NCBI RefSeq assembly: GCF_003253995.1
Contig: NZ_QKZL01000023.1
Location: forward strand, 1 to 56,284
Direction of reading: 5' to 3'
Origin: Palleronia aestuarii
GTDB taxonomy: Bacteria > Pseudomonadota > Alphaproteobacteria > Rhodobacterales > Rhodobacteraceae
DNA length: 56,284 nucleotides
Shown here: piece by piece, positions 6,562 through 56,184 of the stretch
Layout of the letters: each line of letters begins with the position of its first letter
How positions within the stretch are numbered: position 1 is the first letter of the stretch
The notes under the pieces: model-generated
Database searches by the model: none
What the model saw: the letters and a program-made list of their open reading frames with translations, nothing else
Told to the model about the DNA's origin: nothing
Program-made: the position numbers and the translations under genes

Positions 6562-6837
6562 ATGCGCGAAACACCGCTCTTCCTGGGCCTGACGAAGCCG
6601 CCAAAGATCTTCGGACTGCCGATCGGGTACTTCCTGTCGCTCGTCTTCGCGAGCGTCATTCCGTTCGTGCTGCTCGACGACATGCGGTGGCTCTTGGTCC
6701 TCGTGGTGGGCTATCCGCCGCTCTGGATCGTGGCCGACCGTAATCCGCACCTCTTTCAGATCCTCAACGTCACGATCTCCAAGACCCCCCGAACGGCGAA
6801 CCACGACGAGAACGGGGGTGATCGCTATGTCAGCTAA
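6562..6837 (+). CDS. virB3: VirB3-like inner-membrane protein
   Basis: A 91-residue VirB3 family protein. The N-terminal RETPLFLGLTKPPKIFGLPI is typical of the family and precedes two closely spaced transmembrane segments (GYFLSLVFASVIPFVLL and WLLVLVVGYPPLWIVA). The DRNPHLFQIL motif follows. It assists pilus biogenesis together with VirB4. It overlaps virB4 by 11 bases. Confidence 0.88.
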   Translation: MRETPLFLGLTKPPKIFGLPIGYFLSLVFASVIPFVLLDDMRWLLVLVVGYPPLWIVADRNPHLFQILNVTISKTPRTANHDENGGDRYVS

Positions 6838-9193: not shown

Positions 9194-9384
9194 CGACACG
9201 CCTTTGCGTGGCCCTGATGGCGCTCGCCGCGCTCGCAAGCTGCGCGGGTGTCTCCACGGGCGTCCGCTCCCCGTGCTTCGAGCGCGGTGCGGTCGTGACC
9301 CGATCGGTGTCCTTCCTAGCCGATCCCGTGGCATCGGCTCCGACCGAGGATGTGGCCCATGATTGCGATTTCCGGTCGTTCTGA
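9190..9384 (+). CDS. VirB7-like small lipoprotein
   Basis: A 64-residue lipoprotein. The signal peptide MTTRLCVALMALAALASC ends in a lipobox (ALASC), so Cys18 is the acylated residue. The mature part has two further cysteines (SPCFERG and HDCDFRSF). Size, lipid anchor and position behind virB4 fit VirB7, the outer-membrane lipoprotein that stabilises VirB9, although it is farther from virB8-virB9 than in the Ti plasmid. The start lies in an ATGA overlap with virB4. The gene end overlaps the next start by 26 bases. Confidence 0.65.
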   Translation: MTTRLCVALMALAALASCAGVSTGVRSPCFERGAVVTRSVSFLADPVASAPTEDVAHDCDFRSF

Positions 9385-11309: not shown

Positions 11310-11313
11310 CGCC

Positions 11314-11814
11314 ATGATCCAGATGAGAATCCTTGCCATGGTGGCGATGACGCTGATGGCCGTGTCGGCGTCGGCGCAGGAAGCGTCCGACCTGTCGGAC
11401 ACGGGCGTCCTCGATGCGCTCCAGGAGGCGATCGACGCCAGCGACGAGGCCCGCGTCCTGGAACTGATGCAGGAAGCAGAGAGTCGCGGGCTGACGATCG
11501 AAGCGCGTGGTGGCGCGCCCCGTTGCGAACAGCCCGTGGTGCCGAAGGTGGGTGCCCTCGAGCACCCGTTCCGCTGGGGCATGGCCAAGCAGGCGCACGG
11601 GATCAGGCTGCGCCAGCTTGCGATGGAGCAGGGCTATTGCGGCTGTCTCTCGGAGCTCATGGATTTCGCCGAGTTCACCCGGGAACGGACGGGAAAGTCG
11701 CCGGAGGCGCTGACTGAAGATGATCTCGCAACGATCCGCGAATGGTATCATGGTATCCGGGGCGAAATCAGAGAGCCTTACATCGCCTATCGCAACCGTC
11801 AGTGCGGGGACTGA
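11314..11814 (+). CDS. Secreted hypothetical protein in the virB operon
   Basis: A 166-residue protein with a signal peptide (MRILAMVAMTLMAVSASAQ) and four cysteines in the mature part (APRCEQPV, GYCGCLSEL, NRQCGD) that suggest disulfides. GGAG lies 8 bases before the start. I know no family name. Its position between virB5 and virB6, with 4- and 3-base gaps, marks it as a structural or accessory part of the secretion system; that is inference. Confidence 0.65.
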   Translation: MIQMRILAMVAMTLMAVSASAQEASDLSDTGVLDALQEAIDASDEARVLELMQEAESRGLTIEARGGAPRCEQPVVPKVGALEHPFRWGMAKQAHGIRLRQLAMEQGYCGCLSELMDFAEFTRERTGKSPEALTEDDLATIREWYHGIRGEIREPYIAYRNRQCGD

Positions 11815-11817
11815 CGG

Positions 11818-12852
11818 ATGGCGGTTATCAACGATATACTTGATATGGTGGATGGTGTCGTCGTCGGCGTTGCCGGCGATACCTACGCTGACATCGCGAA
11901 CATGGTGCAGCCGGTCGTCGCCACCAGCTCCGTTCTGATCGTCGCCCTGGTCGGCATCAACATCATCACGATGACCGTGGCGCTGGCGCCCTCGACCATC
12001 CTCGGGCTGCTCCTGCGGCTCGTGCTCATCAACATCTTCCTCGATTTCAGCAATCTCGAACCCGTCTATATGGCGCTCACGGAAGGACCTGCGGCGGTTG
12101 GTGCGGGAATGCTTTCAGCTTTGAGCGGGGGCGAAGCGACCAATCTATACGAAGGGCTCGACGATCTCTATGTGAGCTGCCTCGAAATCGGCGAGGCGAT
12201 CGCTGACAATGGCGGCCTCTTCGCGGGGCCGATGACGGCGGTCCTGATGTTCTTGGTCGCGGCGCTCATGGCGGTCGCGACGATCATCATCCTCTCGGCC
12301 GCGAAGATCATGATCGCGGTGCTCCTGGCGATCGCGCCGGTCGCGATCGGCTGCACGATGTTCAAGCAGTCGGCACCCGTCTTCGAGGCATGGGTGAAGC
12401 TCGCGCTCGGCTTCGCCTTCGTTCCGCTCTTCGTGGCGGCCATGGCCGGCTTCACGATCGCGGCCGGGGAGACGGTCGCGCCGAGCGACCTGTCGGATGC
12501 CGAGACGATCGGCGACGTGATCTCCTTCGTGGTGGTGATGCTCCTGGGGGCCGGCCTGATGGCGTTGATCCCCGGTTTCGCGTCGAGTCTCGCGGCCACG
12601 AATATTGGGATCGCCGGCGTGAACGACAGGTTCACCGGAAGCATGAGCCGGGCCATGCGCGGGGCCGGCGGCGCGATCCGCGGCACCGACGATTTCCGAC
12701 GCGGTGCGACGGCAGGTGCGCGTGGCCTCGGCGTGTCCGACCGCTCGTCGAGCGCCGCGCGGATCGGCAACTACACTGGCACCGGCATCGTGAGCGGTGC
12801 CGCCCGCGCACGCCAGCTTGCCGGCAAGATGAAGGGTGGTAAGCCGCAATGA
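11818..12852 (+). CDS. virB6: VirB6/TrbL-like polytopic channel protein
   Basis: A 344-residue inner-membrane protein of the VirB6/TrbL family. At least five hydrophobic segments are visible: SSVLIVALVGINIITMTV, STILGLLLRLVLINIFL, TAVLMFLVAALMAVATIII, MIAVLLAIAPVAIGCTMF and FAFVPLFVAAMAGFTIA. The motif with CTMFKQSAPVFEAWVKL is typical of the family. The C-terminus is Gly/Arg-rich and probably cytoplasmic. VirB6 is part of the inner-membrane channel. The stop overlaps virB8 by 4 bases. Confidence 0.88.
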   Translation: MAVINDILDMVDGVVVGVAGDTYADIANMVQPVVATSSVLIVALVGINIITMTVALAPSTILGLLLRLVLINIFLDFSNLEPVYMALTEGPAAVGAGMLSALSGGEATNLYEGLDDLYVSCLEIGEAIADNGGLFAGPMTAVLMFLVAALMAVATIIILSAAKIMIAVLLAIAPVAIGCTMFKQSAPVFEAWVKLALGFAFVPLFVAAMAGFTIAAGETVAPSDLSDAETIGDVISFVVVMLLGAGLMALIPGFASSLAATNIGIAGVNDRFTGSMSRAMRGAGGAIRGTDDFRRGATAGARGLGVSDRSSSAARIGNYTGTGIVSGAARARQLAGKMKGGKPQ

Positions 12853-13502
12853 GCGATTTCGACATTGATCTCGTGACCGGTCCCCGGCGATCCGCTCGGA
12901 TCGCGTGGCTCGTGGCGGGCTGCTCCGTGATCGTGTCGGTGCTTCTTGCGATCGTCCTGGTCGTTCTTCTGCCGCTTCGCAGCACCGAGGTCTTCACTGT
13001 CCTGGTGGACAGTACGACCGGCGCCGCAGAGCGCATCTATCAAGTGCAGCCGACCGGCATCGAGGATGCCGAGGCAATGAAGCAGGCGTTGCTTGTGGCT
13101 TACGTCAACGACCGCGAGAGCTACTTCCGGGCGGGCATTCAGGAACGGCTCGAGAGCGTACGGCGCCGATCCGCGGGTCAGGCGCGCCGCACGCTCGTCG
13201 AGCTTTGGTCGGAGGACAGCGAGAGCTACCCGCCGCGCGTCTACGGACCCGGCGCCCAAGTCGATGTCGAAGTTCGCAGCATCACCTTCTTCGAGCCCGA
13301 AGTGGCGCGTGTGAGATTCACGAAGATCCTCCAGCGCCCCAACCGAGACACGGTGCGCCAGTCCTTCGTGGCGACCGTCGAGTTTGATTTCAGGCCTCGG
13401 CAGGAACGCTCGCTCGAGCGGGTCTGGGAGAACCCGCTCGGCTTCGAGGTCACGTCCTACAGGGTCGATGCGGAGACGCTGAACGGAGGGAGCAACGGAT
13501 GA
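12849..13502 (+). CDS. virB8: VirB8-like assembly factor
   Basis: A 217-residue bitopic inner-membrane protein. One transmembrane helix near residues 20-40 (LVAGCSVIVSVLLAIVLVVL) is followed by the periplasmic NTF2-like VirB8 domain with the features YVNDRESYF, SITFFEPEVARVRFTKIL and the C-terminal NPLGFEVTSYRVD. VirB8 joins the inner and outer membrane parts of the channel. ATGA overlaps link it to virB6 and virB9. Confidence 0.92.
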   Translation: MSDFDIDLVTGPRRSARIAWLVAGCSVIVSVLLAIVLVVLLPLRSTEVFTVLVDSTTGAAERIYQVQPTGIEDAEAMKQALLVAYVNDRESYFRAGIQERLESVRRRSAGQARRTLVELWSEDSESYPPRVYGPGAQVDVEVRSITFFEPEVARVRFTKILQRPNRDTVRQSFVATVEFDFRPRQERSLERVWENPLGFEVTSYRVDAETLNGGSNG

Positions 13503-14257
13503 AAATTACCATAAGTTTCATTCTAGGTTTTTGTTTCGCCTTCGTCGTTCCGATGGTTTCGCATGCCGAACGCGCCCCGACGACGATGGGTCAGGACGCA
13601 CGGGTACGGAATGTCCTCTACGCGCCGAGCGACGTGATCCGCATCGACACCAACCTCCTCGTGAACACGGCTGTTGAGCTCGGGCCCGGCGAGCGGATCA
13701 ATCAGGTCCTGCTCGGCGATAGCGATAGCTTCGAGGTGCAAGTTCTATCGAACCGCAACGTCGTCTCGATCAAGCCGGTAACGGCCCGGGCTTCCACCAA
13801 CATGACGATCTACACGGCTCGCCGGGCCATCGCCTTCCAGCTTACCGAGGGGCGCAGCGGCACGCCGACCTATCGCGTGGCGATCAATTTCCCCGACGAT
13901 CGGCCGCGTTCGGGTCTGAAGACCGTGAGCGCACAGACGCTCGGGCCGCGTGACACCGCCTACCAGTATACCGGCGACACGCGGAGCCAGATCACGCCGG
14001 TTCGGGTCTGGAACGACGGGCGGTCGACGTTCTTCGAGTTCCGGGGGAACGTGCGGCCCTCTGTCTTCGGGCTGAACGCGCAGGGCTATGAGATCACTCA
14101 GAACAGCGCGACGCGCGGCAATATCGTGCGGGTGGACGGCGTCAGGAACGCCTACACAGTCCGGCTTGGCGAGGAATACGTCTGCGTCCGGCGGGTGCGC
14201 GGCACCTATGAGACCGACCCGACGACGGTCGCCTACCTCCGATCGAAGGAGTTCTGA
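13499..14257 (+). CDS. virB9: VirB9-like outer-membrane channel protein
   Basis: A 252-residue periplasmic protein with a signal peptide (ITISFILGFCFAFVVPMVSHA). The N-terminal domain carries DVIRIDTNLLVNTAVELGPG and VVSIKPVTARASTNM; the C-terminal VirB7-binding domain has PVRVWNDGRSTFFEF and the ending KEF. VirB9 forms the outer-membrane core complex with VirB7 and VirB10. The first codons are AT-richer than the surroundings, which helps translation of an exported protein. Confidence 0.93.
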   Translation: MKITISFILGFCFAFVVPMVSHAERAPTTMGQDARVRNVLYAPSDVIRIDTNLLVNTAVELGPGERINQVLLGDSDSFEVQVLSNRNVVSIKPVTARASTNMTIYTARRAIAFQLTEGRSGTPTYRVAINFPDDRPRSGLKTVSAQTLGPRDTAYQYTGDTRSQITPVRVWNDGRSTFFEFRGNVRPSVFGLNAQGYEITQNSATRGNIVRVDGVRNAYTVRLGEEYVCVRRVRGTYETDPTTVAYLRSKEF

Positions 14258-14259
14258 CC

Positions 14260-15819
14260 ATGGCCGGCCCCGACGACGATCAGACGCAGCAATCAGAGAA
14301 CCCATCGCGCCCGGTATACCGGATCGACTCGCCGCGCCAGCGCATGTCCGGCGGGTCGGCGTTCGTCGTCTCGGCCATGGTGATCGGAGGGCTCGCGCTC
14401 GTGGCATGGCCATATCTCACCGGCGAAGAAACCATCTCGATCGAGACATCCGAGACCGAGGAGTTTCAGGAGGCCGACGACGATCGCGGCTTCGGCGACA
14501 TGGACCTGAGTGAGACAAATCCGCAGCAGGACGGAGAGCCGGAGATTGTCGTGATGGAACCCGAGCCGTTTGACGGCGGCGCGCTTCAGGCCCAGCTCGA
14601 CGCGCAGCGCCGGGCGATCGAGGCGCAGAACGAGGATCTGGCTTCCGAAGTGACGCGACTCCGCGAGCAGCTCTCGGATTTGGCCGGTCGCGAGCCGGAC
14701 GATAATTCGGCCGAGCTGGCGCGGGCTCTCCAGGACATCCAGCGGCAGAATGCTGACCTGATCGAGTCGCTGCGGAGCGATTTCGAGAACAGGATCGAGC
14801 AGGCCGAGCTTCAGGACCGCCAGCGGGAGGCCGACGCCGCATCGGCTCGTCAAACGGCCGAACAGCAGGCGGCCACGTTGCGTCAGCAGCTCAACTCGGT
14901 GTCGCAATCGATCGAGAGCCTGCGCCGCGAGAACCAAGCGCTCGAAGAGCAGTTTCAGCGCGGACTCGACTCCGCTTTGACCGAACAGCAGGAGCGCGAT
15001 CGCCAGGCTGAACTGGAGGCGCAGCGGCGGGCCGAGTTGGAAGCGCGCCGCGCTGAGGCCGAGGAGGCGCGGCAGGCACGGATCGAATCCGAAGGCCTTA
15101 TCTTCGATGCTGGCGGGCGAACCAGTGGTGCGCCGTCAGATGGGAATGAGGCTGTTCCGGCAGGCAGCGCCGGCGGGGCCCTGCGCGCCCCGTCGCGTGA
15201 CGATCTCGAACGCGACTTCGTGACGGCTGCCCTGGAGCCGGTGCAAACGGCCGCCGCGGAAGTGATTGCCAACCCAGGCAGCACGGTGCTTCAGGGAACG
15301 ATCATCCCCGCGACAATGGAGACGGCCATTTCGTCCGACATCCCGGGACCGGTCTCGGCTGTCGTGAACTATCCGGTCTGGAGCTTCGACCAGTCGCAGG
15401 TGGTGATCCCGCAGGGCTCGCGTCTTTTTGGCTCCTACAGCTCCGATCTCGCACTCGGGCAGAGCCGCATCCTCATCCGCTGGTCGCGGATCGTGACGCC
15501 TGACGGCCAGTCCGTACAGATGGCGTCCTTCGGGGCCGACGACCAAGGGCGGTCCGGCGTGACAGGCGATGTGAACCGGCGCTTCGGCCTACGTTTCGGG
15601 TCCGCTGCCCTGCTTTCGATCGTGGGCGCCGGACCGACGCTGGCGGCAGCGCAGTCGGACACCGAAGTGGGAGCGGAGGTTGCGGAGGACATCGCCGATG
15701 ACTTTTCGCGAACGACGCAATCCGTCGCCAGCGAATACGCGCGTATTCCGCAGGAAATCTCGATCCAGCCCGGGGCTTCAATTACCGTCATCGTTGATCG
15801 CGACCTGGAGTTCTTCTGA
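14260..15819 (+). CDS. virB10: VirB10-like scaffold protein with a long coiled coil
   Basis: A 519-residue VirB10/TrbI protein that spans both membranes. One N-terminal membrane helix (AFVVSAMVIGGLALVAWPYL) is followed by an acidic stretch. A long Gln/Glu/Arg coiled coil (about residues 105-275) replaces the Pro-rich linker of other VirB10 proteins. The C-terminal beta-barrel domain has VIANPGSTVLQGTIIPATME, SQVVIPQGSRLFGSYSSDL and the ending ASITVIVDRDLEFF. It senses ATPase activity and gates the outer pore. The linker is unusually charged. Confidence 0.93.
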   Translation: MAGPDDDQTQQSENPSRPVYRIDSPRQRMSGGSAFVVSAMVIGGLALVAWPYLTGEETISIETSETEEFQEADDDRGFGDMDLSETNPQQDGEPEIVVMEPEPFDGGALQAQLDAQRRAIEAQNEDLASEVTRLREQLSDLAGREPDDNSAELARALQDIQRQNADLIESLRSDFENRIEQAELQDRQREADAASARQTAEQQAATLRQQLNSVSQSIESLRRENQALEEQFQRGLDSALTEQQERDRQAELEAQRRAELEARRAEAEEARQARIESEGLIFDAGGRTSGAPSDGNEAVPAGSAGGALRAPSRDDLERDFVTAALEPVQTAAAEVIANPGSTVLQGTIIPATMETAISSDIPGPVSAVVNYPVWSFDQSQVVIPQGSRLFGSYSSDLALGQSRILIRWSRIVTPDGQSVQMASFGADDQGRSGVTGDVNRRFGLRFGSAALLSIVGAGPTLAAAQSDTEVGAEVAEDIADDFSRTTQSVASEYARIPQEISIQPGASITVIVDRDLEFF

Positions 15820-16827
15820 ATGAATACTTCGCCTGCCGATCACCAGACGTTTCTAGCCGCGTATCTTCGACCGCTGTCGGCCACGCTGACGGACCCGAAG
15901 CTGGTCGAGATCGCGATCAACCCCGATGGCGCGGTATGGGTCGAATGGCAGGGCTGCGCCCATATGGTCCGGCTCGACGGTGTGACGTTTTCCCCAGCCC
16001 AGGCGAAGGACCTGGCGGGCGCGATCGCGGGCGGCACACACGGTCAGATCAGCGAGAAGAAGCCGCTGATCTCGGGCAAGATCATTCATAGCGGGATGCC
16101 GATACGAGCGCAGGTCATCTACACACCTGTGGTGGAAGGTGCCGCTTCGATCACTTTGCGCCGGTATCAGACGAAGCGGCTTGGCCTCGACGGGTTCGAG
16201 CTCCTGCATGGTGGCCTCGTCGATCTCGATGAGCAACGTCGCGAGAAGGCCCGCGCCGTCGTCCAGGCGGTTGCACAAGGCGCCATTCGGGACGCCATGA
16301 AGATGTGCGTCGCCAACCGCTTGAACGTGATGGTAAGTGGCGGGACATCGACCGGGAAGACGACTTTCGCCGGCGGACTTCTCGAGCTGGTCGATCCTTC
16401 GGAGCGGATCATTACGATCGAGGATGCCTACGAGCTCTTCCCGCCGCAGGAAAACAGCGTGATGCTGAAGGCAGACCGCGCGGAGGGAAGCGAGAAGTCA
16501 CCCGCCCGTCTTCTGGAAGCCGCGCTGCGGATGCGGCCCGATCGGATCATTCTCGGCGAGCTGCGCGGCGGTGAGTGCAAGACGTTCCTCGACGCGATCA
16601 ACACCGGCCACAGCGGCTCGTTCACGACGATCCATGCGAACACGGCCCGGAAGGCGATCGACCGGCTTGCGCTCATGGTCATGTCGGTCGGCATCAACAT
16701 GAATTTCGAGGAGGTTCGGCGCTATTGCGAGGGCTCGATCGACATGATCGTGCAACTCGGGCGCGCCGACGGCGCGCGAGGAATCGCGGAGGTCTATCTG
16801 CCGGACGTTGATCGAGAAGCCGCCTGA
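15820..16827 (+). CDS. virB11: VirB11 ATPase
   Basis: A 335-residue hexameric traffic ATPase of the VirB11/GspE family. Walker A is MVSGGTSTGKTTF (about residue 172), followed by the Asp box RIITIEDAYELF, Walker B RIILGELRGGE, and the His box GHSGSFTTIHANTARKAIDRL. It switches the machine between pilus assembly and DNA transfer. It starts directly after the virB10 stop (TGAATG). Its stop codon is the first base of a perfect 21-bp hairpin. Confidence 0.95.
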   Translation: MNTSPADHQTFLAAYLRPLSATLTDPKLVEIAINPDGAVWVEWQGCAHMVRLDGVTFSPAQAKDLAGAIAGGTHGQISEKKPLISGKIIHSGMPIRAQVIYTPVVEGAASITLRRYQTKRLGLDGFELLHGGLVDLDEQRREKARAVVQAVAQGAIRDAMKMCVANRLNVMVSGGTSTGKTTFAGGLLELVDPSERIITIEDAYELFPPQENSVMLKADRAEGSEKSPARLLEAALRMRPDRIILGELRGGECKTFLDAINTGHSGSFTTIHANTARKAIDRLALMVMSVGINMNFEEVRRYCEGSIDMIVQLGRADGARGIAEVYLPDVDREAA

Positions 16828-44988: not shown

Positions 44989-45954
44989 TCAGTGGCTCTC
45001 GCCTTCGCCTTCACCTTCGCCCTCGGCACTGGCTTCGCCCTCTTCCTCGCTTTCGCCGCTGGCGGCGGATTCACCTTCGGCGCGGGCGAGTTGGGAGCTG
45101 GCCAGGTCCATGCGTGCCGCGGCGCCGTAGATGATGGAGGGATCCATCTCGAACGCGCCTTCGCCCTGCAGATCACCAAAGGCTGCGCCGGTGGCTTCGA
45201 CCTGCTCGAGGAGCGATCGGCCGACCTCGGCGACCAGGGCGTCTTCGCTATTGGCCATCTCGCGCGCTTCGGTCTCGACAACGCGCAGGAAGCCCCAGCT
45301 GTCCTGATACTCGTGAAGGTTCGAGAGCTGGCCGCCCTCCACCGCCACCGTGTATTCCTCGCCGGCGACGCGTGTGAGATCGATCAGGCCCGCGACTTGC
45401 TGCGCAGGCGAGAAGCCTTCGCGGACGGCCTCGAGCGTTTCGCGCATGGCGGCATACTGCTGCTCGATTTCCGCGTACTCGGCCTCTGCCTCGGTTGCGG
45501 CGGCCAGTGCGGAAATCTGCTCCTTGAGGGTATCGAAGCCTGTCTCGGCGAGACGTTCGGCGACGGCGTCGTATTTCTCCTCGATGGGATGGCCCATATG
45601 GGTCTTCGCCGCCTGGAGATCGCCTTGCTCGTAGAGGGCGAGGCCGGCGCGAATATGCCCTTCCATGAAGGCCAGCCCGCTCAGGAATGCGGTGTCTGGA
45701 TCGGCGCTCGCGCCGCCTTCGGCTTCACCCTCTCCGCCGACGCTCGCCGCGCCGTCCCCTTCAGCACTGGCGCTAGCCTCGCCTTCGCCTTCTGATTGGG
45801 CAAGGATGAGGCTCTCGTCAGCGGCACTTTCGCCCTCGGCTTGGGCTTCGGAGGAAGAGATAACTCCGGCAGCTGCAAGAGCGGCAAGTCCGGTGAGAGC
45901 CGAGACCCGGCGTGCGGTGACGAGGCGTGGCCCGTTAGGATTGCGTTCTGCCAT
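44989..45954 (-). CDS. Secreted Gly/Glu/Ser-rich low-complexity protein
   Basis: A 321-residue exported protein of unknown family. The signal peptide (SALTGLAALAAAGVISSSEAQA) is followed by a low-complexity acidic region (SEGEGEASASAEGDG and relatives, about residues 40-85), a helical domain (about 88-285) with FMEGHIRAGLALYEQGDLQAA and similar helices, and a second acidic tail (EGEGEGEGESH). The helical part resembles in size and feel cell-surface iron-binding or imelysin-like domains, but no motif proves it. It shares an operon with the PiuC-type oxygenase. The acidic ends could bind cations. Confidence 0.65.
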   Translation of the reverse strand: MAERNPNGPRLVTARRVSALTGLAALAAAGVISSSEAQAEGESAADESLILAQSEGEGEASASAEGDGAASVGGEGEAEGGASADPDTAFLSGLAFMEGHIRAGLALYEQGDLQAAKTHMGHPIEEKYDAVAERLAETGFDTLKEQISALAAATEAEAEYAEIEQQYAAMRETLEAVREGFSPAQQVAGLIDLTRVAGEEYTVAVEGGQLSNLHEYQDSWGFLRVVETEAREMANSEDALVAEVGRSLLEQVEATGAAFGDLQGEGAFEMDPSIIYGAAARMDLASSQLARAEGESAASGESEEEGEASAEGEGEGEGESH

Positions 45955-46217: not shown

Positions 46218-48449
46218 TTAGGAAGAACCCGCAATCCTTTTGGGACGAGAACGCGTTCCGGCGGGTCGAGCGGGTTCGCCACCTGTGGCGCCGTCGGCAG
46301 AGCGACTATCGTTGAGGGTGTCTCGGCTGCTTCCCCTCTGGCCTTCGGCCTCGAACGTCGCGGCTATCGTCGCGGCGCTAGGTGCATCGGCACGCTTCAA
46401 AGGTGCGCGCCTGCCCTGCCCGACAGTTGGCGTGGACCTTGATGCACCGCTGGTATTCGGAGTTCCGCTTTCCTCGGCATCGTGTGCAAAATCTCCGAAC
46501 TCGGCAGCAATTTTTTTCGCAGTATGGGCGCCATCGCGTTTCGCCGGAGCCGCGCGGCCGGCCGACGCGGAAGGCGTGGGTCGCTGCTTCTGCTCCGCCT
46601 GACCCGCAAGGCCGGCATAGCCGCTCTGCTGTTCGGCGAGACCGGAGACCATCTGCTCCTGCGTGAGCGGTTTCGTCTCGGCAGGCGCTACGGCGACGAT
46701 CTTCTTTGCCCGCTTGGTGGGTTCGGTGAGCGGCGGATAGGGTAGATCGTGGCCTGCCCGGGCCGCGTAGATGCACTCGAAGTGATGATCCTCGAAATAC
46801 CGGATGTGGTGGGCCAGGATCGGGTATTGTCCCTCGGGCAGCACCAGAACGCGATCGAGCGGGAAGCGCAGGATTTCGGCTGGCGAGATCAGCGGGCGTT
46901 CCTCCGACCGGCGGCTGACGTTGCCGCTCTCGTCGAACTTCCGGATCACCGATTGCGATCGGGTGGTGCTGACTGTCGTCCGCTTGCCGAGCGCATCGGA
47001 CAGAACCTGAGCGGTCCGGTCGTCTTGCGGCGTCATGTAGATCTGCACCCCGGCCCCCGCGAGAAGCGCTCGGCGGTCGGTCTCCCCGTAGATGCTCTCG
47101 AGACCGGGGATCGACTGTGTGATGATGAAGAACCGGCCGCCATATTGCCGGATCGTCTTGATGCTGTTGAGGACCATTGGCTGGCGGCCAAGCTGGTCGA
47201 ACTCGTCCATCAGGAACATGACCGGATGCGGTTCGTCCGGTCCTGGCAGCTTGCGTTGCAAGCTGGCGATCGCGTCGGCGAAGAGAAGGCGGATGAGCGG
47301 CGCCAGCGTCTTCAGGTGCTCGGGCTGCACGACGATGTAGAGCGACTGCGGCTCGGATCGGAACGTTGAGAAGTCGAAATCGCTCTCGCTCGTGGCCCGA
47401 TCGACGGCGGGGTCAAGCCAGAGCTCCAGCCCTGCCCCGCGGATCACGCTGACATAGCTGTCGAGGATCTTGTCGGTCTCGTCCGCCATCGTCAGGAAAA
47501 TTTCCGCAACGGTCGGGTTGGACGTGGACTCGGCGATGGCGACGTAGCTGTCCTTCTTCGACCCGCCCCCGGTCATCAGCCGCAACGCCTCGCCGATCGT
47601 GGGTCGGCCCTTTTCGATCGCGTAGAGGCAGGCGCCGACAAAGAGGCTGCGGCCGGCCTGGAAGAAGCTCTGCGCGTTCACACTCTCGACGATGAGGAAC
47701 AGGTCGGCCATCGCGTTGATCGCGGTGTATTGCTGCTCCCAGCTCGGCAGCGCGGCGATGCGGGCGAGCGGATTGAACCGGTGCGTGCGTGTATAGACCG
47801 GGGTCGTGTCGTCGGCCCCTTCGGGCATCACGTAGTCGAAGGGCGAGAAGTACCAGATCCTGTTGCCCAGCCCGCGCTCCCGATGGATCGCGGTGTTCTC
47901 GAAATTCTCGCCTTTCTGGTCGAGGACGATCGCGCTGCCACCGAACTTCAGGAGGTTCGGCGAGACGAACCCGACGCCTTTCCCGCGGCCGGTCGGACCG
48001 ATCATGATCGCGTGCGGGAACCGGTTCGGCTCCGCCGACACGAACGGCCCCGGCCGCTGCGGCTTCGTCATCTTCGCGTAAACGAACCCGGGACGCTCCA
48101 CCGGCGCGGTCATCTTGTTCCGCTTGAGTTCGGTCCGGGTCTGAAAGTGGGAATCGTCGTAGGACGAGAGGCGCCCGCGCTGGACCGAGTTGATGCCGAC
48201 GCCTGCCAGCACGACGGCCGGAAAGGCCGTGATGAGCCAAATCGTGTATCGAACATCCGGATTGGCAGCGATCCGCGCCGGCGAATATCGCAGGAACCAG
48301 GGCTCCAGCACATTCCACGTGTTCACGCCGTCCCCGAAGACGAAAATCGCGTAGAGCGTGGCGAGGACCGCTCCGATATAAGTGCCGGCGGCCAGTCCGA
48401 CCGTGGCGGCGATCGGGAACCGCCAGGCGCTGTCCATGGATTGCAGCAT
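46218..48449 (-). CDS. virD4: VirD4/TraG-type coupling protein
   Basis: The 743-residue ATPase that brings the relaxase-DNA complex to the secretion channel. Two N-terminal membrane helices (FPIAATVGLAAGTYIGAVLA and IWLITAFPAVVLAGVGI) precede the nucleotide-binding domain. Walker A is MIGPTGRGKGVGFV (the GKG form usual in VirD4), Walker B is VMFLMDEFDQLG, followed by FFIITQSIPGLESIYG. The last 150 residues are Ala/Arg/Ser-rich and probably disordered. AAGGAG lies before the ATG. It is separated from virB11 by the 29-kb cargo. Confidence 0.93.
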   Translation of the reverse strand: MLQSMDSAWRFPIAATVGLAAGTYIGAVLATLYAIFVFGDGVNTWNVLEPWFLRYSPARIAANPDVRYTIWLITAFPAVVLAGVGINSVQRGRLSSYDDSHFQTRTELKRNKMTAPVERPGFVYAKMTKPQRPGPFVSAEPNRFPHAIMIGPTGRGKGVGFVSPNLLKFGGSAIVLDQKGENFENTAIHRERGLGNRIWYFSPFDYVMPEGADDTTPVYTRTHRFNPLARIAALPSWEQQYTAINAMADLFLIVESVNAQSFFQAGRSLFVGACLYAIEKGRPTIGEALRLMTGGGSKKDSYVAIAESTSNPTVAEIFLTMADETDKILDSYVSVIRGAGLELWLDPAVDRATSESDFDFSTFRSEPQSLYIVVQPEHLKTLAPLIRLLFADAIASLQRKLPGPDEPHPVMFLMDEFDQLGRQPMVLNSIKTIRQYGGRFFIITQSIPGLESIYGETDRRALLAGAGVQIYMTPQDDRTAQVLSDALGKRTTVSTTRSQSVIRKFDESGNVSRRSEERPLISPAEILRFPLDRVLVLPEGQYPILAHHIRYFEDHHFECIYAARAGHDLPYPPLTEPTKRAKKIVAVAPAETKPLTQEQMVSGLAEQQSGYAGLAGQAEQKQRPTPSASAGRAAPAKRDGAHTAKKIAAEFGDFAHDAEESGTPNTSGASRSTPTVGQGRRAPLKRADAPSAATIAATFEAEGQRGSSRDTLNDSRSADGATGGEPARPAGTRSRPKRIAGSS

Positions 48450-48466: not shown

Positions 48467-50356
48467 CTAGAAGTCGATCACGTGGTCCATGTCCTCGTCA
48501 CGCCCCCTGCCCCGCTCGGCCCGATGGGCCGCGCGTTCATGGACACTCGCGAGATCACGATACCGTCCGACCGGTTCGCTGTCGCGCACGTCGAGGTCCT
48601 GGCCATCTTCGACGCGTCCCATGTTCCGCAGCTCCGATCCGACGGCGGCGCGTAGACCCGGATCGTTGATCTTCTCGATGAGCGGGTCCATTTCCCCTCG
48701 CCCCACCCGGTCCAGATCACCGTCGCTCATGTCGGCGCGAACCTCCTTCGCCAGGCGGTCGAGCGCGGCGATATCGGACAGACGGTCGGTCCGCTCGGCC
48801 TCCATCAGCTCCTGCCGTGCCAGATCCTCGAGGAGGTCGCGGCCGACGGGAACCGACGCGACGATCTTCTCGGCCTCGGCCCGCATTTCGCGTTCCATCT
48901 CGATCCATTCGGCCCGACGATCCGGATCGTCCGGCCGCCACTCATTGATCTGCGCCGCGCTCCGATCGGCGGCGGCGAAGCGCGCCGCCATCTCCTCGGC
49001 ATTGGTGTCGCCCCACTCGAACCTGCTTTCGAACCGCTCGAAGGCGTCGGCGAGCCGGTCACTTATGGCATCGAGCGCCGCATCGGCCTCGGCCGCAAAG
49101 CGTCCGTCACCTCGCGCGCGCTCCTGAAGGAGCGCCACGGGTGCGACGGCGTAGGGATCTCTCTCCCTGTCGAGGCCTTGGGCGTAGGACTGGAAGAACG
49201 GGTCCTGTCCGATGAGATGCGTGGTGGACCGCGCCTGGTCCGCGAACTGTCCTTCAAGCTCTACACGCTCCGGACCCGGCTCCATGTTCCGAATCTTCGT
49301 CCAGGCCATCTGCGCCTCGGAAATCAGCGCCTCGCGCGCGGCCGCGATCCTGCCCGCCGGGTCGATCGTGTCGGCGGGAATGTCGTTCACATCGGCAAAA
49401 TCGGACACGATCGGTTCTCCTTTCAGAAGATGCGCGGCGGCCGCGCTGGCGCCCTGGAACAGGCGGGCCGCGAACCCGTCGCCTTCAGTGTCGTCCAGCA
49501 TCGACGCGATCCCGGCCAGCGATCGGTAGTCGGCCGCGTAGGACCGAAGGGATGCCTCGCGCTGGATGCGCTGGACGAAGGACAGCGGCTCGACATAGGG
49601 CTCCCGTCCCTCTTGCAGCGCAGCCTGCACATCCGTCTCACGAGGCGCGTTCTCTATGAGCCCGCGCGACAGGCGGGGCGTCGCATTGAGCGCCAGACCG
49701 TGCTCGGACGCGATTTGCGCGTGCAGCTCGCGCATCATGTCGTAGTTGATCTCCGAATAACGGCTGATCGACAGGAACGCTTCATGATCCATGCCCACCT
49801 TGTCCACGACGAAATGCGCGTGGACGTGCTCGGTGTTGTGGTGCAGCGCGGCGACGTAGCGGAACCTGTCGGCGTAGAAGCCGCTCCCGAACACCTCCTG
49901 CCCCCATTCCCGCGCGATCTCCTCGGCCAGCCCGGCATCGGTGCCCTTCGGGAACGACAGGATGATGTGGTCGGTATGCCCGCGCTTCGGCGCACCGACC
50001 CAGGATCCACCCCAGTCTGCCACAACGCGCGCGATACCCTCTTCCTCGAAGCTCCGCTCGACACCGATCTGGTTCGACCATGAGGCCGTCAGCGCCTCGT
50101 CCCGGAGGACATAGGACATCTGCCGAGTGAGCTCCTTGCGGCTATGGCAACCGCCGGCGGATACGCGCTTCACGACGCTCTGCGGCACCCGCGCGACGTT
50201 CTTGGTCAGCCCGACGGCCTTGTCCGCCCTGCCCCGACCGACATCGGACTTTTTATATCGGGGCTTCGGGAACGCGCCCATCGAGCGATTGCGCCGGCCG
50301 ATATCGGGCAGCACCTCGCCAATGACGGCCTGCTGAACTGTTCTCCAGTCAGGCAT
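48467..50356 (-). CDS. VirD2-type relaxase
   Basis: A 629-residue relaxase that nicks oriT and leads the strand into the recipient. The N-terminal nuclease domain has a likely catalytic Tyr region (RQMSYVLRDE), the DHIILSFPKGT strand and the metal site HHNTEHVHAHFVVDKV with the histidine triad. The C-terminal 350 residues are charged and helical and probably carry the secretion signal. GGGAGGGGG lies upstream of the ATG, which overlaps the accessory protein gene by 8 bases. I name it by family, not by symbol. Confidence 0.88.
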   Translation of the reverse strand: MPDWRTVQQAVIGEVLPDIGRRNRSMGAFPKPRYKKSDVGRGRADKAVGLTKNVARVPQSVVKRVSAGGCHSRKELTRQMSYVLRDEALTASWSNQIGVERSFEEEGIARVVADWGGSWVGAPKRGHTDHIILSFPKGTDAGLAEEIAREWGQEVFGSGFYADRFRYVAALHHNTEHVHAHFVVDKVGMDHEAFLSISRYSEINYDMMRELHAQIASEHGLALNATPRLSRGLIENAPRETDVQAALQEGREPYVEPLSFVQRIQREASLRSYAADYRSLAGIASMLDDTEGDGFAARLFQGASAAAAHLLKGEPIVSDFADVNDIPADTIDPAGRIAAAREALISEAQMAWTKIRNMEPGPERVELEGQFADQARSTTHLIGQDPFFQSYAQGLDRERDPYAVAPVALLQERARGDGRFAAEADAALDAISDRLADAFERFESRFEWGDTNAEEMAARFAAADRSAAQINEWRPDDPDRRAEWIEMEREMRAEAEKIVASVPVGRDLLEDLARQELMEAERTDRLSDIAALDRLAKEVRADMSDGDLDRVGRGEMDPLIEKINDPGLRAAVGSELRNMGRVEDGQDLDVRDSEPVGRYRDLASVHERAAHRAERGRGRDEDMDHVIDF

Positions 50357-50885
50357 GGGCCCCCTCCCCTGCCTCTTCGGCGGGCCTGATCGCGCCCCGT
50401 GCGCCGGCCGCCTTCACGGCCTGGAGGTCTCTCGCCACGTCCTCGACCCGATCGAGAAGCCTGACGACGAGCTCGCCGTCGCGACGGTTCCAGCGCAGCC
50501 GACCCGCTCGCGCGAGCTGGAGCATCTGCACGAGGTTCCGCGCCAGCGCGTTCATCTGGTTCGAACTCTGACGCAACGCGTCGATTTCCTCACGGCGGAA
50601 ATCGGCGAGACCGGCCGAAAGCCGCATCAACCGGCGAAGCATCTCCGATGCGGACATGTCCTCGACGTCGAGCACGGCATCGAAGGCGTCGGCCTCTCGT
50701 TGCGAGACCCGGACCTGAAGGACGCGGCCGCGGGTGGTGCGATCCGTCGCGATCCCGCGCCGACGCAACCGCGAAACCGTCGGCCTTGAACATCCGACGA
50801 TGTCGGCGACATCCGCGTCCTTCCGCCCCTCGGCGACCAGACGCAGGATGTCTTGCTTCGTCTTGAACGTGAGGCGTTTCGGCAT
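50349..50885 (-). CDS. Relaxosome accessory DNA-binding protein (MobC/VirD1-like role)
   Basis: A 178-residue protein with an N-terminal helix-turn-helix (FKTKQDILRLVAEGRKDADV, VADIVGCSRPTVSRLRRRG) and a ribbon-like strand (GRVLQVRVSQREADAFDAVL) followed by MSASEMLRRLMRLSAGL. The C-terminal part has SNQMNALARNLVQMLQLAR, the motif common in MobC-type mobilisation proteins. It should bind near oriT and help the relaxase. Its upstream region holds the candidate oriT. It overlaps the relaxase gene by 8 bases. Confidence 0.78.
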   Translation of the reverse strand: MPKRLTFKTKQDILRLVAEGRKDADVADIVGCSRPTVSRLRRRGIATDRTTRGRVLQVRVSQREADAFDAVLDVEDMSASEMLRRLMRLSAGLADFRREEIDALRQSSNQMNALARNLVQMLQLARAGRLRWNRRDGELVVRLLDRVEDVARDLQAVKAAGARGAIRPAEEAGEGAHA

Positions 50886-50945
50886 GGTATGACCGGAAGC
50901 GACAGGCGTTCAATAACTGTCATACACAATACTATTCCTGTCAAC

Positions 50946-51200
50946 GTCCTTTCAGTCCGTTGTCGCTCCTTCGGAGAAGGGTCACGCGCGACAGCGAACA
51001 GACTGAAAGGACTCCACCAGCGCCCGGCGTGACCCGCTCGCGGGGCACTCGGATGCCGGGCGGCAAGACTCGCCAGATGGCGAGGCGCGCAGACGGACCA
51101 TGGGTCCGTCGGAGAGAATGCCCCTTCCGGCTCCTACGGAGGCCGGTGGAGGGCGCCATACATCTTCCTCACCCCTTTGACGCCCAGAAACTTTCTGGGC
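50946..51200. other. Nested inverted repeats, candidate origin of transfer
   Basis: Almost every base here can pair. GTCCTTTCAGTC (50946-50957) pairs with GACTGAAAGGAC (51001-51012), with inner TGTCGC/GCGACA (50961/50988). Then CCCGGC-CCCGC (51023-51037) with GCGGG-GCCGGG (51040-51060), CTCGCC/GGCGAG (51069/51079), GACGGACC/GGTCCGTC (51092/51103), a bulged CCGGCTCC/GGAGGCCGG (51127-51146), and GCCCAGAAA-C-TTTCTGGGC (51182-51200). The position between the divergent relaxosome genes and virC1 is the usual one for oriT. No known nic core was recognised. Confidence 0.55.
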
Positions 51201-51220
51201 TCTCCAGCGCCGTCGTTGCA

Positions 51221-51610
51221 AAGCCAAATCGCCTAAACGGCCAGACGTCCATGATGACAACCTATCGACCATGCTACACGGACGTTGGGCCACACGGCCA
51301 ATCGGCCATGTTGCATATCGCAACTGGGGGGCCAGCTAGCATAGGCGGCCACTACGCCAACGCGCCAAGTGCATTTGTGGCCATGTCGAACATCACGCCA
51401 AACGAATATTTAACCAAGATGCCGAAGGGCCGACATGACAAGCGGCAAATGGGCCACGCGGCCATACGACCGAGAGCCCGGGCGGCCAAACCGCCTAGAC
51501 CGCCGCACGGCCAATTGGATATACTGCCATCACGTCAAGATGCCGGGCGGCCATTCGACTACGCGGCCATGAGAACACCCGGCCAACAATACGCTGCGCC
51601 GATCGGCCAG
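51221..51610 (+). repeat. Degenerate tandem octamer array, consensus NCGGCCAW
   Basis: CGGCCA occurs 11 times in one orientation (51238, 51295, 51303, 51346, 51459, 51483, 51508, 51548, 51564, 51580, 51604). Most spacings from 51459 on are multiples of 8 (24, 25, 40, 16, 16, 24). The sequence between also divides into octamers: from 51491 fifteen units run without a slip, for example GCGGCCAT, TCGACTAC, GCGGCCAT, GAGAACAC, CCGGCCAA. Position 6 is C in nearly all units. Phase slips of 1-3 bases occur at a few places. It lies directly before virC1. Confidence 0.8.
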
Positions 51611-51642
51611 ACCCGCTCGGTGCGAAACGATGAGGATGAGCA

Positions 51643-52461
51643 ATGATCGTAGTGACCGCGATGTCCACCAAGGGTGGATCAGGCAAGACGACGCTGATGA
51701 TGGCGCTGGCCACGGGCCTTCTCGAGAGAGGGATGCGCGTGCACATCATGGATTTCGACAACGACAGCCAGATCGCGCTCTGGGAACAGAACTCGGACAG
51801 ATTTGCCTGGGACGAGACGGCCCCGCGCGTGTCTTGGCCCGACGCGCTGACGCTCTCTGTCGCGCCGGTGGCCATCGAGGATGTCTACTCCCAGTTGAAC
51901 GAACTGGAGAGCAAGGGCGTCGATGTGGTCCTTCTCGACAACCGTCCCGGCAACCTCGAAGAGAACGAGGACGTGGTCCTGGCCGCGGACATCGTCCTGC
52001 TTCCGGTCCGCCCGGAGCACACGGACTATCAGATGGCGGAGCGCACGCTGCGATGGGCCGAAGCGACGGTGGCCACCCTCGAAGAAGGACAGCCCGCGCC
52101 GATCTTCCGGTGCGTCGTAACCCAGCTCTCGACGCCGTTCTACAACCTGCTGACGGCCGGAACGCCGGAGGAGATCGCACGGGCGACCGCCAAGGTCGCC
52201 AATGCCGACCGCGCGATGATCGACTTCCTGCGCCAACTGCCATGCCTTCCGACGCCGATCAGGGACACCAAGCAGCTCTTCCGGATTTCGGCGACGGGAC
52301 CGCTCACGGTCGCGCGCGACACGTTCCTGAACGGGCAGGGGACCGCCCGGCACGCGCATGTCTTCAAGGAGGACATCGAGATGTGCGCCGACCTTGCCGA
52401 CGACGTGATGGATGCCGTGAGAGCCACGAACAAGGCAGCCGGGGAGATGGCCGATGCCTAG
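51643..52461 (+). CDS. virC1: VirC1-like ParA-family ATPase
   Basis: A 272-residue deviant-Walker ATPase. Walker A is STKGGSGKTTLM (residues about 8-19); DFDNDSQIALWEQNS follows as in VirC1 (DADENRPLTRWREN in the Ti plasmid, recalled from knowledge), and LLDNRPGNLEENEDVV is the Walker B region. VirC1 places relaxosomes at the cell poles and increases the number of transferred strands through the overdrive site. Its partner gene follows with an 8-base overlap. A general ParA role in partition is possible, but no ParB gene is present. GAGGATGAG precedes the ATG. Confidence 0.75.
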   Translation: MIVVTAMSTKGGSGKTTLMMALATGLLERGMRVHIMDFDNDSQIALWEQNSDRFAWDETAPRVSWPDALTLSVAPVAIEDVYSQLNELESKGVDVVLLDNRPGNLEENEDVVLAADIVLLPVRPEHTDYQMAERTLRWAEATVATLEEGQPAPIFRCVVTQLSTPFYNLLTAGTPEEIARATAKVANADRAMIDFLRQLPCLPTPIRDTKQLFRISATGPLTVARDTFLNGQGTARHAHVFKEDIEMCADLADDVMDAVRATNKAAGEMADA

Positions 52462-53206
52462 AGTCCCGCCTGCCCGGAAGAGCCCGACGCCACAGGACCC
52501 CGAGCATCCGACGAAAGAGAAGAAAAAGCGGGCGAAGCTCGCACCTGTCTCCCGGACAGGCCCCTTGCCGATCGCGTCACTAGTGGATCGAAACGACGTG
52601 GAGCCAGATACGCCGAGCGCGCCGAAGGGCAGGCGTACCCAGGCGGCACCCGCATCCGAGCAAGAGCTTCCGATCGAGACAATTTCGGAAGCGACGATCA
52701 AGACATCATCCCCGGCCGTGGCGCCGCCTCGAACGGAGGTGGACGAAAGGGCAGGGGAGGCGATGACGCCTGCGCCGACCGAACCTGAACCCGAAAAACG
52801 GCAACCCCAGAGTCGGAAGGCGGCCGGGCCCCGCAAGCCACGCAGCATCCGCCTCTGGTTGACCCGGATGCAGGAGGCGCAGCTTCGCGAGCTGGCGAAG
52901 GAGCTCGACATTGAAGTCGATTACCTGATCGACGGTCTCGCCACCCGCGCGCGGCATCGCCTCGCCGCCCTCCGCGATGCCTCCGGATGGCGGGAGCTTT
53001 CCGGTGCCCTGATCGTGACGAGCCGCCGGACCGACGATGGCAGGCGGGCGAAGCACTCGTCGATCGCGCTGAGCGACGCCGAGTTGCGCGAGGCCACGGC
53101 CCCCATCCGTGATCCTCTCGGGGTGCTGTCCGACACGCTCGTCCTCAACGCCTATTTCGACGCGGCGTTCGCGGCGGAGGCCGAGATCGTCCGCAACGAT
53201 GCCTAG
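52454..53206 (+). CDS. VirC2-like ribbon-helix-helix DNA-binding protein
   Basis: A 250-residue protein. The first 125 residues are Pro/Glu/Lys-rich and probably disordered. The rest carries a ribbon-helix-helix-like fold (RSIRLWLTRMQEAQLRELAK, then IEVDYLIDGLATRARHRLA) and a second similar part (GALIVTSRRTDDGRRAKHSSI, LSDAELREATAPI). Ti-plasmid VirC2 is a duplicated RHH protein that binds overdrive and is encoded after virC1, as here. It is a natural candidate to bind the octamer array upstream. Confidence 0.68.
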   Translation: MPRVPPARKSPTPQDPEHPTKEKKKRAKLAPVSRTGPLPIASLVDRNDVEPDTPSAPKGRRTQAAPASEQELPIETISEATIKTSSPAVAPPRTEVDERAGEAMTPAPTEPEPEKRQPQSRKAAGPRKPRSIRLWLTRMQEAQLRELAKELDIEVDYLIDGLATRARHRLAALRDASGWRELSGALIVTSRRTDDGRRAKHSSIALSDAELREATAPIRDPLGVLSDTLVLNAYFDAAFAAEAEIVRNDA

Positions 53207-53619
53207 TCGCAGCGCAGCTCCGGCATGGGATCGGCCGTCACGGTGAAGCTGTCGTCTTCGGTGACGACGGCGATCCGTCCGCCGGCCTGCGCCATCGCGA
53301 TCAGGTCCGACCATTCCTCCGCGTCGGCATCCTGCTGGGTGGCGATGCCTTCGCGGGTCATGAACGCGGCCTGCTCGCCGGTCTCCGCGAGGAACACGAC
53401 CTGCGTGACACTCTGGGCGACGGGCATTTCCACCACGAAATTGGCGTAGCTCTTGTCCGGGTTGTAGGCGCGGTCCGGGTCGCAGACCAGGACGACGGTG
53501 CCCCCATCGCCCGTGATCGTGTAGGAGTCGAGACCGCGCTCCAGGTCATAGACCCATTCCGCCGCCGTCGCCGAGGCGGCGGCAACGATCGCAACGGCGA
53601 TGGCGGTAAGCCGGATCAT
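53203..53619 (-). CDS. Secreted hypothetical protein
   Basis: A 138-residue exported protein with a signal peptide (LTAIAVAIVAAASATAAEW) and an all-beta mature part (SYTITGDGGTVVLVCDPDR, NFVVEMPVAQSVTQVVFLAE, DDSFTVTADPMPELRC). The two mature Cys residues probably form a disulfide. No family recognised. Its stop overlaps the virC2 stop in CTAG (convergent). The upstream region has two perfect palindromes. Confidence 0.6.
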   Translation of the reverse strand: MIRLTAIAVAIVAAASATAAEWVYDLERGLDSYTITGDGGTVVLVCDPDRAYNPDKSYANFVVEMPVAQSVTQVVFLAETGEQAAFMTREGIATQQDADAEEWSDLIAMAQAGGRIAVVTEDDSFTVTADPMPELRCD

Positions 53620-55272: not shown

Positions 55273-56184
55273 CTAGGCGGCCACCCCCTCGGACATCGCC
55301 TCGATGGTCTCGCCGCACCGCTCGGTGATGTAGTCCACCGCCTTCTGCGCTTCCCGCGCGGCCTTGAAGATCGCCTTCTTGTCGTTCTTCAACGCGGCGA
55401 GCCAGCTTTCGACATAGGCCGCGCTCTGGTCGATGGTCGGCTGAAGGCCGATGCTCGCGAACAGCATGCACTGGCCGATCTCCGCGACGAGCTCTTCGCG
55501 CGCCCGGTCTTCCTTGGTCGGGAACTTCTTGATCCGGTCCAGTCGCGGGCTCCCGCCGACATAATGGATGGCCTCGTGCCCGAGGGTTTCGTAATAGCCC
55601 TGCGCCTCGTGAAAGGTGGCGATCGGCGGCATGTGGATCACGTCGCGGCCCATGTGGTAGTAGGCTTGCGGCTCGTCGGTGGTCTCGATGGTGGCGCCCA
55701 GCTTCGCGAAATACGCCTCGATCCCGGCAATCGGCTTCGTCCCGAGGTCGGCCGCCGCCTCGCGCTGGCGATAGTAGCTGTCCGGCAGGCCGTCGATCTG
55801 GTCGGCGCAAAAGACACGGTAGGCTTTGAGATAGGGGCGCTTCACCTCCTCGCCGGTCTCGTCCTCTTTCTCGACGGTCCCGTATTTGACGATCATGGTG
55901 GAGGTCTCGCCCTTGCGGACCTGCGCGCCCATCTCCTGAGCCTGCCGGTAGGTCATCCAGTAGGGCGAGGCGTAGCCCTTTTCGCTCGCGGTGAGCCACA
56001 GCATCAGCACGTTGATGCCGCGATAGCCTTCGCCGCCGTGCCGAAGGGGGAAGGGGGCGCCGCCGCCTTGGCCGGTCCATGGGCAACGCCACGGCGGGGT
56101 GCCCGCCTCGATGGCGGCGATGATCTTCGCGGTGATCTCGGCCTCGGGATCGAACTTCGCGGCGGTCTTCCTGCGGGTCGCCAT
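55273..56184 (-). CDS. ArdC-type antirestriction/zincin protein
   Basis: A 303-residue protein of the ArdC/DUF1738 family. The N-terminal ssDNA-binding domain has PPWRCPWTGQGGGAPFPLRH, GYRGINVLMLWL and a conserved SPYWMTYRQAQEMGAQVRKG; the C-terminal zincin-like peptidase has LGHEAIHYVG (HExxH) and EELVAEIGQCML. ArdC protects entering single-stranded plasmid DNA in the new host. GAGGAGGG precedes the ATG. It fits the conjugative nature of the element. Confidence 0.88.
   Translation of the reverse strand: MATRRKTAAKFDPEAEITAKIIAAIEAGTPPWRCPWTGQGGGAPFPLRHGGEGYRGINVLMLWLTASEKGYASPYWMTYRQAQEMGAQVRKGETSTMIVKYGTVEKEDETGEEVKRPYLKAYRVFCADQIDGLPDSYYRQREAAADLGTKPIAGIEAYFAKLGATIETTDEPQAYYHMGRDVIHMPPIATFHEAQGYYETLGHEAIHYVGGSPRLDRIKKFPTKEDRAREELVAEIGQCMLFASIGLQPTIDQSAAYVESWLAALKNDKKAIFKAAREAQKAVDYITERCGETIEAMSEGVAA

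Follow-up and report, generated by a model that had tools for sequence, protein, structure and literature searches.

The overdrive sequence of Ti plasmids lies outside the T-DNA. For pRi8196, Hansen et al. reportedly described in 1992 a T-DNA transfer stimulator sequence (TSS) made of repeated 8-bp units near a border. According to the accessible part of PMC5030305, overdrive is a short element of 24 nt at the right border of the T-DNA. In Agrobacterium, VirC1 and VirC2 promote relaxosome assembly, VirC1 binds overdrive, and VirC1 also delivers the intermediate of transfer to the channel for secretion (accessible text of PMC4949242 and PMC4285021). So short an element hardly reveals by itself what VirC2 targets, or for what reason T-DNA export is aided by an ATPase of the partition type.

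The other closely similar systems are partition loci in which a ParA-type ATPase works with a ribbon-helix-helix (RHH) protein on short repeats. At the parS sites of pSM19035, which lie over the system's own promoters, the RHH binder ParB (omega) occupies contiguous 7-bp WATCACW units, one dimer per 7-bp repeat; a site has 7–10 repeats in mixed orientations, and at least four contiguous repeats are required for full ParA activation (accessible part of PMC9499535). The parH locus of TP228, served by ParF and ParG, has degenerate short boxes with spacers that are coated by an RHH protein (accessible part of PMC7308502).

Here we analyse a window of 56,284 nucleotides from Palleronia aestuarii (contig NZ_QKZL01000023.1, the whole stretch read) that carries a long array of short repeats ahead of virC1. 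In the open literature, as covered by titles and abstracts and with subscription journals mostly outside the search, we found no description of such virC1 arrays; the accessible text of PMC4886583, on roseobacter conjugation, mentions VirD2 and VirD4, and virC and oriT are absent from that text. The features of the window are as follows.

6818–16827, plus strand: virB-type secretion stretch; the three open reading frames tested are VirB4-, VirB10- and VirB11-like (Pfam CagE_TrbE_VirB, TrbI and T2SSE)
46218–48449, minus strand: VirD4-type coupling protein (Pfam T4SS-DNA_transf, 9e-77)
48467–50356, minus strand: MOBP-type, VirD2-like relaxase (Pfam Relaxase, 3e-14; NCBIfam VirD2, 5e-24, under its cut-off)
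50349–50885, minus strand: helix-turn-helix gene in the mobC/virD1 position, a position common to relatives (Pfam HTH_23, 7e-9)
50935–50945, plus strand: nic-like motif TTCCTGTCAAC (pattern TTCCWGYCAAC), putative oriT cut region
50946–51012, no strand: oriT-like interrupted hairpin (inverted repeat I9; single-strand DNA fold)
51230–51609, plus strand: tandem array of degenerate 8-bp units (lag identity, cyclic-model path, tiling)
51496–51525, plus strand: weak sigma-70-like promoter match within the array (one found, against a shuffle mean of 0.3)
51643–52461, plus strand: VirC1-like ATPase of the ParA/MinD type (Pfam VirC1, 2e-17)
52454–53206, plus strand: VirC2-like protein, named from position, layout and predicted fold
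52808–53203, plus strand: C-terminal part of the VirC2-like protein, two predicted RHH halves in one chain (AlphaFold model)
55273–56184, minus strand: ArdC-type antirestriction gene (ArdC match also in nine of 18 wider contexts of relatives)

The array sits between the oriT-like hairpin and virC1-virC2, divergent from the mobC/virD2/virD4-type genes, and its end is 33 bp from the start of virC1; this is the order of parts that the first-pass annotation of this DNA had described. The window VirC1 meets Pfam PF07015 (63.7 bits, cut-off 24), lies under the NCBIfam VirC1 equivalog cut-off (61.7 of 313 bits), and has ParF of TP228 as its nearest solved sequence (E 3e-6). The motif TTCCTGTCAAC presumably resembles the T-border nick core TCCTGTCA; it lies about 290 bp from the array and is a candidate cut site only. 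Of 104 loci, 30 have the same pattern no more than 1.4 kb upstream of virC1, although this number includes plasmids that were counted twice. The hairpin that follows it has a single-strand DNA fold with a z of -3.8, a value reached by none of 200 shuffles, and in relatives hairpins after the nic-like motif are seen by eye only. Elsewhere in the window we observe a minus-strand hypothetical gene after virC2 (53203–53619), which has matches in five of 18 wider contexts and none in Pfam or PHROGs; a Ser/Gly/Glu-rich low-complexity open frame on the minus strand adjoining the coupling protein gene (44989–45954); and signals at lags 12, 33 and 36 in an open frame of the secretion gene region (11900–12600).

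The first-pass annotation had proposed octamers ahead of virC1, with eleven exact CGGCCA words in a single orientation and fifteen units in phase over 51491–51610, and had named autocorrelation at lag 8 as a check. The word count agrees: CGGCCA occurs eleven times in 51221–51642 and its complement TGGCCG not once. Lag-8 identity over the same bases is 0.394, well beyond every one of 2000 dinucleotide shuffles (mean 0.267, maximum 0.338), so the array is real; lags 16 (z 6.6) and 24 (z 5.1) give extra peaks against dinucleotide shuffles. A cyclic eight-state model that allows one-base slips gains 102.7 nats over background, compared with at most 22.5 nats in 20 shuffles. The array is larger than had been claimed, because the path of this model runs through 42 whole and four partial units, about 45 degenerate units over about 380 bp, with three loose bases ahead of 51230. 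Unit spacings are 8 bp in 39 cases and 9 bp in three, with a single break at 51315–51341. The run of fifteen holds its phase from 51500, where all units are 8 bp, and the unit at 51491 has 9 bp. Informative positions form the core [C]GGCCA: GGCCA carries the information, and the other three positions are loose. Among 224 tiles of 500 bp across the window, a score of at least 4 at period 7 or 8 is reached solely by the two tiles that overlap the array most, while Tandem Repeats Finder at score 30 does not list it. An open frame (50960–51646) crosses the array; we rejected a coding origin since a period of 8 bp is out of step with codons and since 1-bp gaps set the window apart from its congener in this stretch.

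How does the locus compare with the known systems? It shares with the Ti plasmids virC1-virC2, a VirD2-type relaxase, virD1 divergent from virC1-virC2 and a cis sequence near a putative transfer origin; in contrast to the 24-nt overdrive, the array is long. In line with the proposal that the sequences are unrelated, the overdrive consensus has no match here with up to three mismatches. By its reported description, the pRi8196 TSS likewise has 8-bp repeats. Compared with a short-repeat ParA/RHH centromere, ParA and repeats are present and RHH is given by predicted fold only. Unlike pSM19035 parS, the arrays described here have about 20–60 units in loci with neighbouring mobilization genes, run in one direction in the window, and adjoin oriT-like DNA; TP228 parH differs in being a partition locus and in its unit and length. 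The array is a proven member of neither the overdrive nor the short-repeat centromere class.

We collected VirC1 relatives from plasmid records (54 matched, 14 regions read), from genome samples, with VirC1 detected at family level in 40 of 394 genomes (E 1e-20), at order level in 47 of 390 (1e-30) and at class level in three of 385 (1e-25), and also from named genome contigs, and scored the 500 bp upstream of each gene at periods 5–14 against 200 shuffles. The best period exceeds every own shuffle in 100 of 104 upstream regions; it is 7 in 62 of these (14 counted as 7), 8 in 35, and 9, 12 or 13 once each. After L027, L054 and L055 were dropped, 101 scored loci with a VirC1 above 180 aa were left. 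A divergent mob or relaxase match lies within 1.5 kb upstream of virC1 in 87 of them, and 86 of the 87 have an array ahead of virC1. An array is also present in 13 of the 14 VirC1-like loci without a mob or relaxase match at this distance, a group in which five loci have less than 1 kb upstream and the mobC of L016 sits past an inserted transposase gene. Because two loci in some cases represent one plasmid (L024 and L178, for instance), we also give cluster counts: at 90% VirC1 identity the 101 loci form 44 clusters and the 87 mob-flanked loci form 38. In 16 of 18 wider contexts, the mobC-relaxase genes are divergent from virC1.

With Ti-type and L164 VirC1 queries we fetched eight more plasmid regions from outside the Rhizobiaceae. 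All seven with relaxase and mobC/VirD1-position genes carry arrays (L282, L283, L285, L287–L290); they include Roseobacter denitrificans pTB1, with annotated VirD1 and VirC1, and R. litoralis pROLI81, with annotated VirC2. The eighth, L284, is an Acidiphilium ParA gene adjoining repC and has no array upstream. Most of the non-Rhizobiaceae VirC1-like loci examined thus have an array in this place. Across the 86 mob-flanked array loci the median is 44 units, or about 315 bp; the gap that the model leaves before virC1 is about 30 bp in the median and reaches 301 bp. The prediction that similar arrays would be found at this place in related plasmids is borne out; the idea of a class of octamers as such is not, since one large branch has mostly 7-bp units, single loci have 9, 12 or 13, and the word depends on the lineage. 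The constants among loci are the position and the short pitch.

Some single loci are worth recording. In L012, from a Maritalea plasmid, a period-8 GCAAAAca array at about 4565–4780 stands with virC1, virC2 and a MobF relaxase; it lies 221–436 bp ahead of virC1, from which a small gene annotated as hypothetical separates it, and the virC module thus occurs with another relaxase type too. Arrays of period 9 (L141), 12 (L170) and 13 (L151) occupy the same spot ahead of virC1-like genes. In L130/L184 (G355:C30), a VirC1-like gene, a second gene of small size and an array of period 8 adjoin a replication initiator (Pfam RPA); no mob or other transfer gene was found in its 10.5-kb stretch, and the locus has the look of a partition system belonging to the same family. 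A scan of viral contigs gave ParA matches that are partial and weak (best E 9e-11).

As controls we scored the upstream regions of 70 other ParA genes. In 15 of these the maximum of 100 own shuffles is exceeded at some period, and the own-shuffle criterion is therefore loose. A score of at least 5 at period 7 or 8 is found in three controls (L097, L063 and L075), and L070 scores 4.0. L097 is a Paracoccus-type VirC1 that shares 50% identity with L017 over 152 residues. The ParA genes of L063 and L075 are preceded, at about 2600–3000, by AGGATC-type 8-bp repeats that are possible undescribed centromeres; L075 also has a coupling-protein-like match 1.9 kb downstream. A threshold of 4 at period 7 or 8 is reached by 97 of the 104 regions ahead of VirC1 genes and by 83 of the 87 that are mob-flanked, the four mob-flanked loci below it being L005, L049 (3.7), L141 (period 9) and L151 (period 13). 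Some regions pass their own shuffles narrowly, among them L014, with 5.6 against 5.5, and L049, with 3.7 against 3.6. The four own-shuffle failures among the 104 are L005, L027, L055 and L158. The cyclic model gives a positive result for L005 at period 7 (51.7 nats, with no more than 31.5 in 20 shuffles), the L027 match begins inside the gene, L055 has 394 bp upstream only, and L158 has neither an array nor a mob match.

We then asked which positions of the unit change between relatives. Pooled over 21 of 23 hand-chosen pairs of related loci (two pairs under 60% identity were left out), the two most informative positions are changed at 161 of 1638 sites and the three least informative at 487 of 2455. 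The most informative positions are less often changed in 22 of the 23 pairs, the exception being L013/L014. Between the window and its congener G066 the counts are 1 of 90 versus 15 of 134 (Fisher p 0.003). Core positions are thus constrained and change half as often as spacers between relatives. The longer gaps between relatives comprise whole units in some cases (7, 14, 21; 8, 24) and not in others.

The word differs between lineages. When profiles were trained on 31 hand-chosen arrays, each gave 46 to 178 nats more than shuffles on the array it came from, and close to zero on most of the rest. Exceptions occur among near relatives, and there are a few likenesses between lineages, such as window/L175 (32 and 43 nats) or L034/L018 (52 nats). 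The genome of the window holds a second such system (G000:C15); the two profiles score 6 and 3 nats on each other's arrays, against 116 and 110 on their own. The period follows the VirC1 tree: period 7 versus 8 requires four changes over 44 labelled tips, while 200 shuffles need at least seven and on average 14. This tree is a quick, midpoint-rooted one of 53 proteins, with long branches that include the window.

The putative array-binding protein is the product of the second gene. In 98 of the 103 listed loci, the 260 bp that follow virC1 contain the start of an ORF of at least 100 aa, though these were not each checked. For the window protein, AlphaFold models the C-terminal domain as strand-helix-helix twice in one chain (pLDDT 76, pTM 0.72), a predicted tandem RHH-like fold. 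The protein has no match above the curated cut-offs of Pfam, VirC2 PF07181 included (Rho_N appears at E 0.034, under its cut-off); NCBIfam and PHROGs likewise give no match at E 0.01. A Foldseek search of solved structures with the model gives no significant match; Ti VirC2 (2rh3) has the top TM scores (0.51/0.54) among the 50 matches listed, at E 1.4, and F-plasmid relaxosome chains rank first by E-value, none of them significantly. Profile comparison with Ti VirC2 by hhalign is insignificant (probability 2.8% and 1.35%); a DP motif that is invariant in eight VirC2-like domains aligns with Ti VirC2 in this insignificant comparison. Searching PDB sequences with the VirC2-like profile yields two designed proteins only (E 0.09–0.12). 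For the period-7 clade the model is poor (pLDDT 62.5), VirC2 is absent among the 50 matches listed, and the fold search is uninformative. Of nine proteins in the VirC2 position that we scanned alongside Ti VirC2, L164 (6e-18) and L141 (3.5e-9) pass the Pfam VirC2 cut-off, L056 falls just under it (1e-4), and six, the window's included, have no match. L164 (period 8) and L141 (period 9) thus have both a Pfam VirC2-passing second protein and an array. A search for the VirC2 family in the order of G792 found one locus, which was already in the set.

We favour, with moderate confidence, the reading that the array is a binding strip for the RHH VirC2-like protein, at which the ParA-like VirC1 loads or delivers the relaxosome; it is the most likely one because RHH proteins line short repeats and because of the roles that VirC proteins have in Agrobacterium. 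VirC2-like RHH units would bind next to one another, each on a single 7- or 8-bp unit, to form a long nucleoprotein filament adjoining oriT. VirC1 could then engage the filament, aid the assembly or stimulation of a relaxosome of VirD2-like relaxase and MobC-like protein, and pass it to the coupling protein. By analogy with the described systems, the array is probably overdrive-like in its role and centromere-like, of the short-repeat ParA/RHH kind, in its build. We infer further that the word would drift along with its binding protein, the two co-evolving, while protein-to-protein packing would keep the pitch. A point against the likeness to overdrive is that, if the plus-strand nic motif is the cut site, the array would lie on the leading side of the strand, in contrast to overdrive with its place outside the T-DNA.

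The strongest rival is a partition centromere, in which VirC1 and VirC2 would be a ParA/RHH inheritance pair and the array its parS, with the closeness to oriT secondary; we regard this as unlikely. Its build would be that of the pSM19035 7-bp repeats with their RHH ParB (PMC9499535, accessible part) and of TP228 parH, with degenerate tetramer boxes, AT-rich spacers and an RHH ParG coat (PMC7308502, accessible part), and it is the ParF of TP228 that is the solved sequence nearest to the window VirC1. The frequent mob or relaxase match divergent from virC1 (87 of 101 loci) argues against it. In this count, however, it is VirC1 and not the mob genes that the arrays accompany, being equally frequent without a nearby mob match (13 of 14), which favours partition and counts against a VirC strip; so does L130/L184, where no mob gene was found and ParA, the small second gene and the array adjoin a replication initiator. 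The arrays at the control ParA loci L063 and L075 also count against a VirC strip. The plasmids themselves point both ways. Of the 21 plasmid records of the set, 13 contain a strong ParA (PF13614, E no higher than 4e-25) that is separate from VirC1 and adjoins a ParB match, and many of them therefore need no second partition site; in the other eight, no separate strong pair was found with these models, as partition by VirC1/VirC2 would have it. The Maritalea plasmid of L012, on the other side, has another ParA and an annotated partitioning determinant adjoining.

It is improbable that the array is an operator only, through which bound VirC2 (or VirC1) would repress or time the virC operon. Such a role would suit an array that ends so close to virC1 and holds the only promoter-like match in 50880–51700, and RHH ParB proteins regulate their own genes via parS sites over promoters (accessible part of PMC9499535). 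Against this, the modelled gap to virC1 in relatives, although about 30 bp in the median, extends to 301 bp. Operators also usually need fewer than the roughly 45 units over 380 bp seen here. An operator role may exist besides the main one.

Wrapping of the relaxosome by the divergent MobC/HTH accessory protein, which would bind the array in place of VirC2, is very improbable. A divergent mob or relaxase match in 87 of 101 loci would suit it, and accessory proteins with RHH motifs belong to many relaxosomes (accessible part of PMC5675868). The nearer hairpin would nevertheless be the likelier MobC target, and the Maritalea locus keeps virC1, virC2 and array with a MobF relaxase and no mobC match within 1.5 kb. 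Neutral tandem-repeat debris or replication iterons deserve hardly any credence: short tandem arrays can arise through slippage, but the core positions are constrained, and the same place is filled with different words in many lineages.

The Rhizobiaceae differ. None of seven loci, Ti included (L277–L281, L291, L292), has an array upstream of virC1, and the Ti virD1-virC1 intergenic DNA has none in four of four cases; VirC function there therefore needs none. The gene order is shared: virD1 is divergent from virC1-virC2 in five of the seven (L277–L280, L292). Five Rhizobiaceae VirC1 tips, Ti included, form one clade beside L164, within the array-bearing group; of the branches that enclose it, two have SH-aLRT values of 99 and 95 and the inner ones 88–89. 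The simplest reading of this placement is loss or relocation of the array in the Rhizobiaceae branch. Tiles of period 6 and period 9 elsewhere in L292 fall in annotated coding sequence. In L281 (Rhizobium johnstonii pRL7), virC1 is annotated, the stretch read contains no virC2, virD1 or array, and the copy is seemingly an orphan.

Taking the VirC2 strip as our preferred reading, we tentatively put forward a broader proposal, to which we give rather less than even credence. Long arrays of 7- or 8-bp units would be an undescribed class of transfer element, situated between oriT and virC1 and standard for conjugative plasmids with VirC in the Rhodobacterales and some relatives. The word would be a private, fast-drifting address for the plasmid's own VirC2, and the pitch would be set by VirC2 packing. 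Since words are private, as the two systems of the window genome with no cross-recognition by profile suggest, relaxosomes of co-resident plasmids could be kept apart. The Ti overdrive may then derive from such an array that shrank and moved elsewhere.

Should the arrays be VirC2 strips, a large group of bacteria would begin conjugation on a centromere-like filament beside oriT, and the machinery of plant transformation would gain a visible ancestor. Dozens of natural protein-array pairs would then show how RHH proteins change their word at constant spacing.
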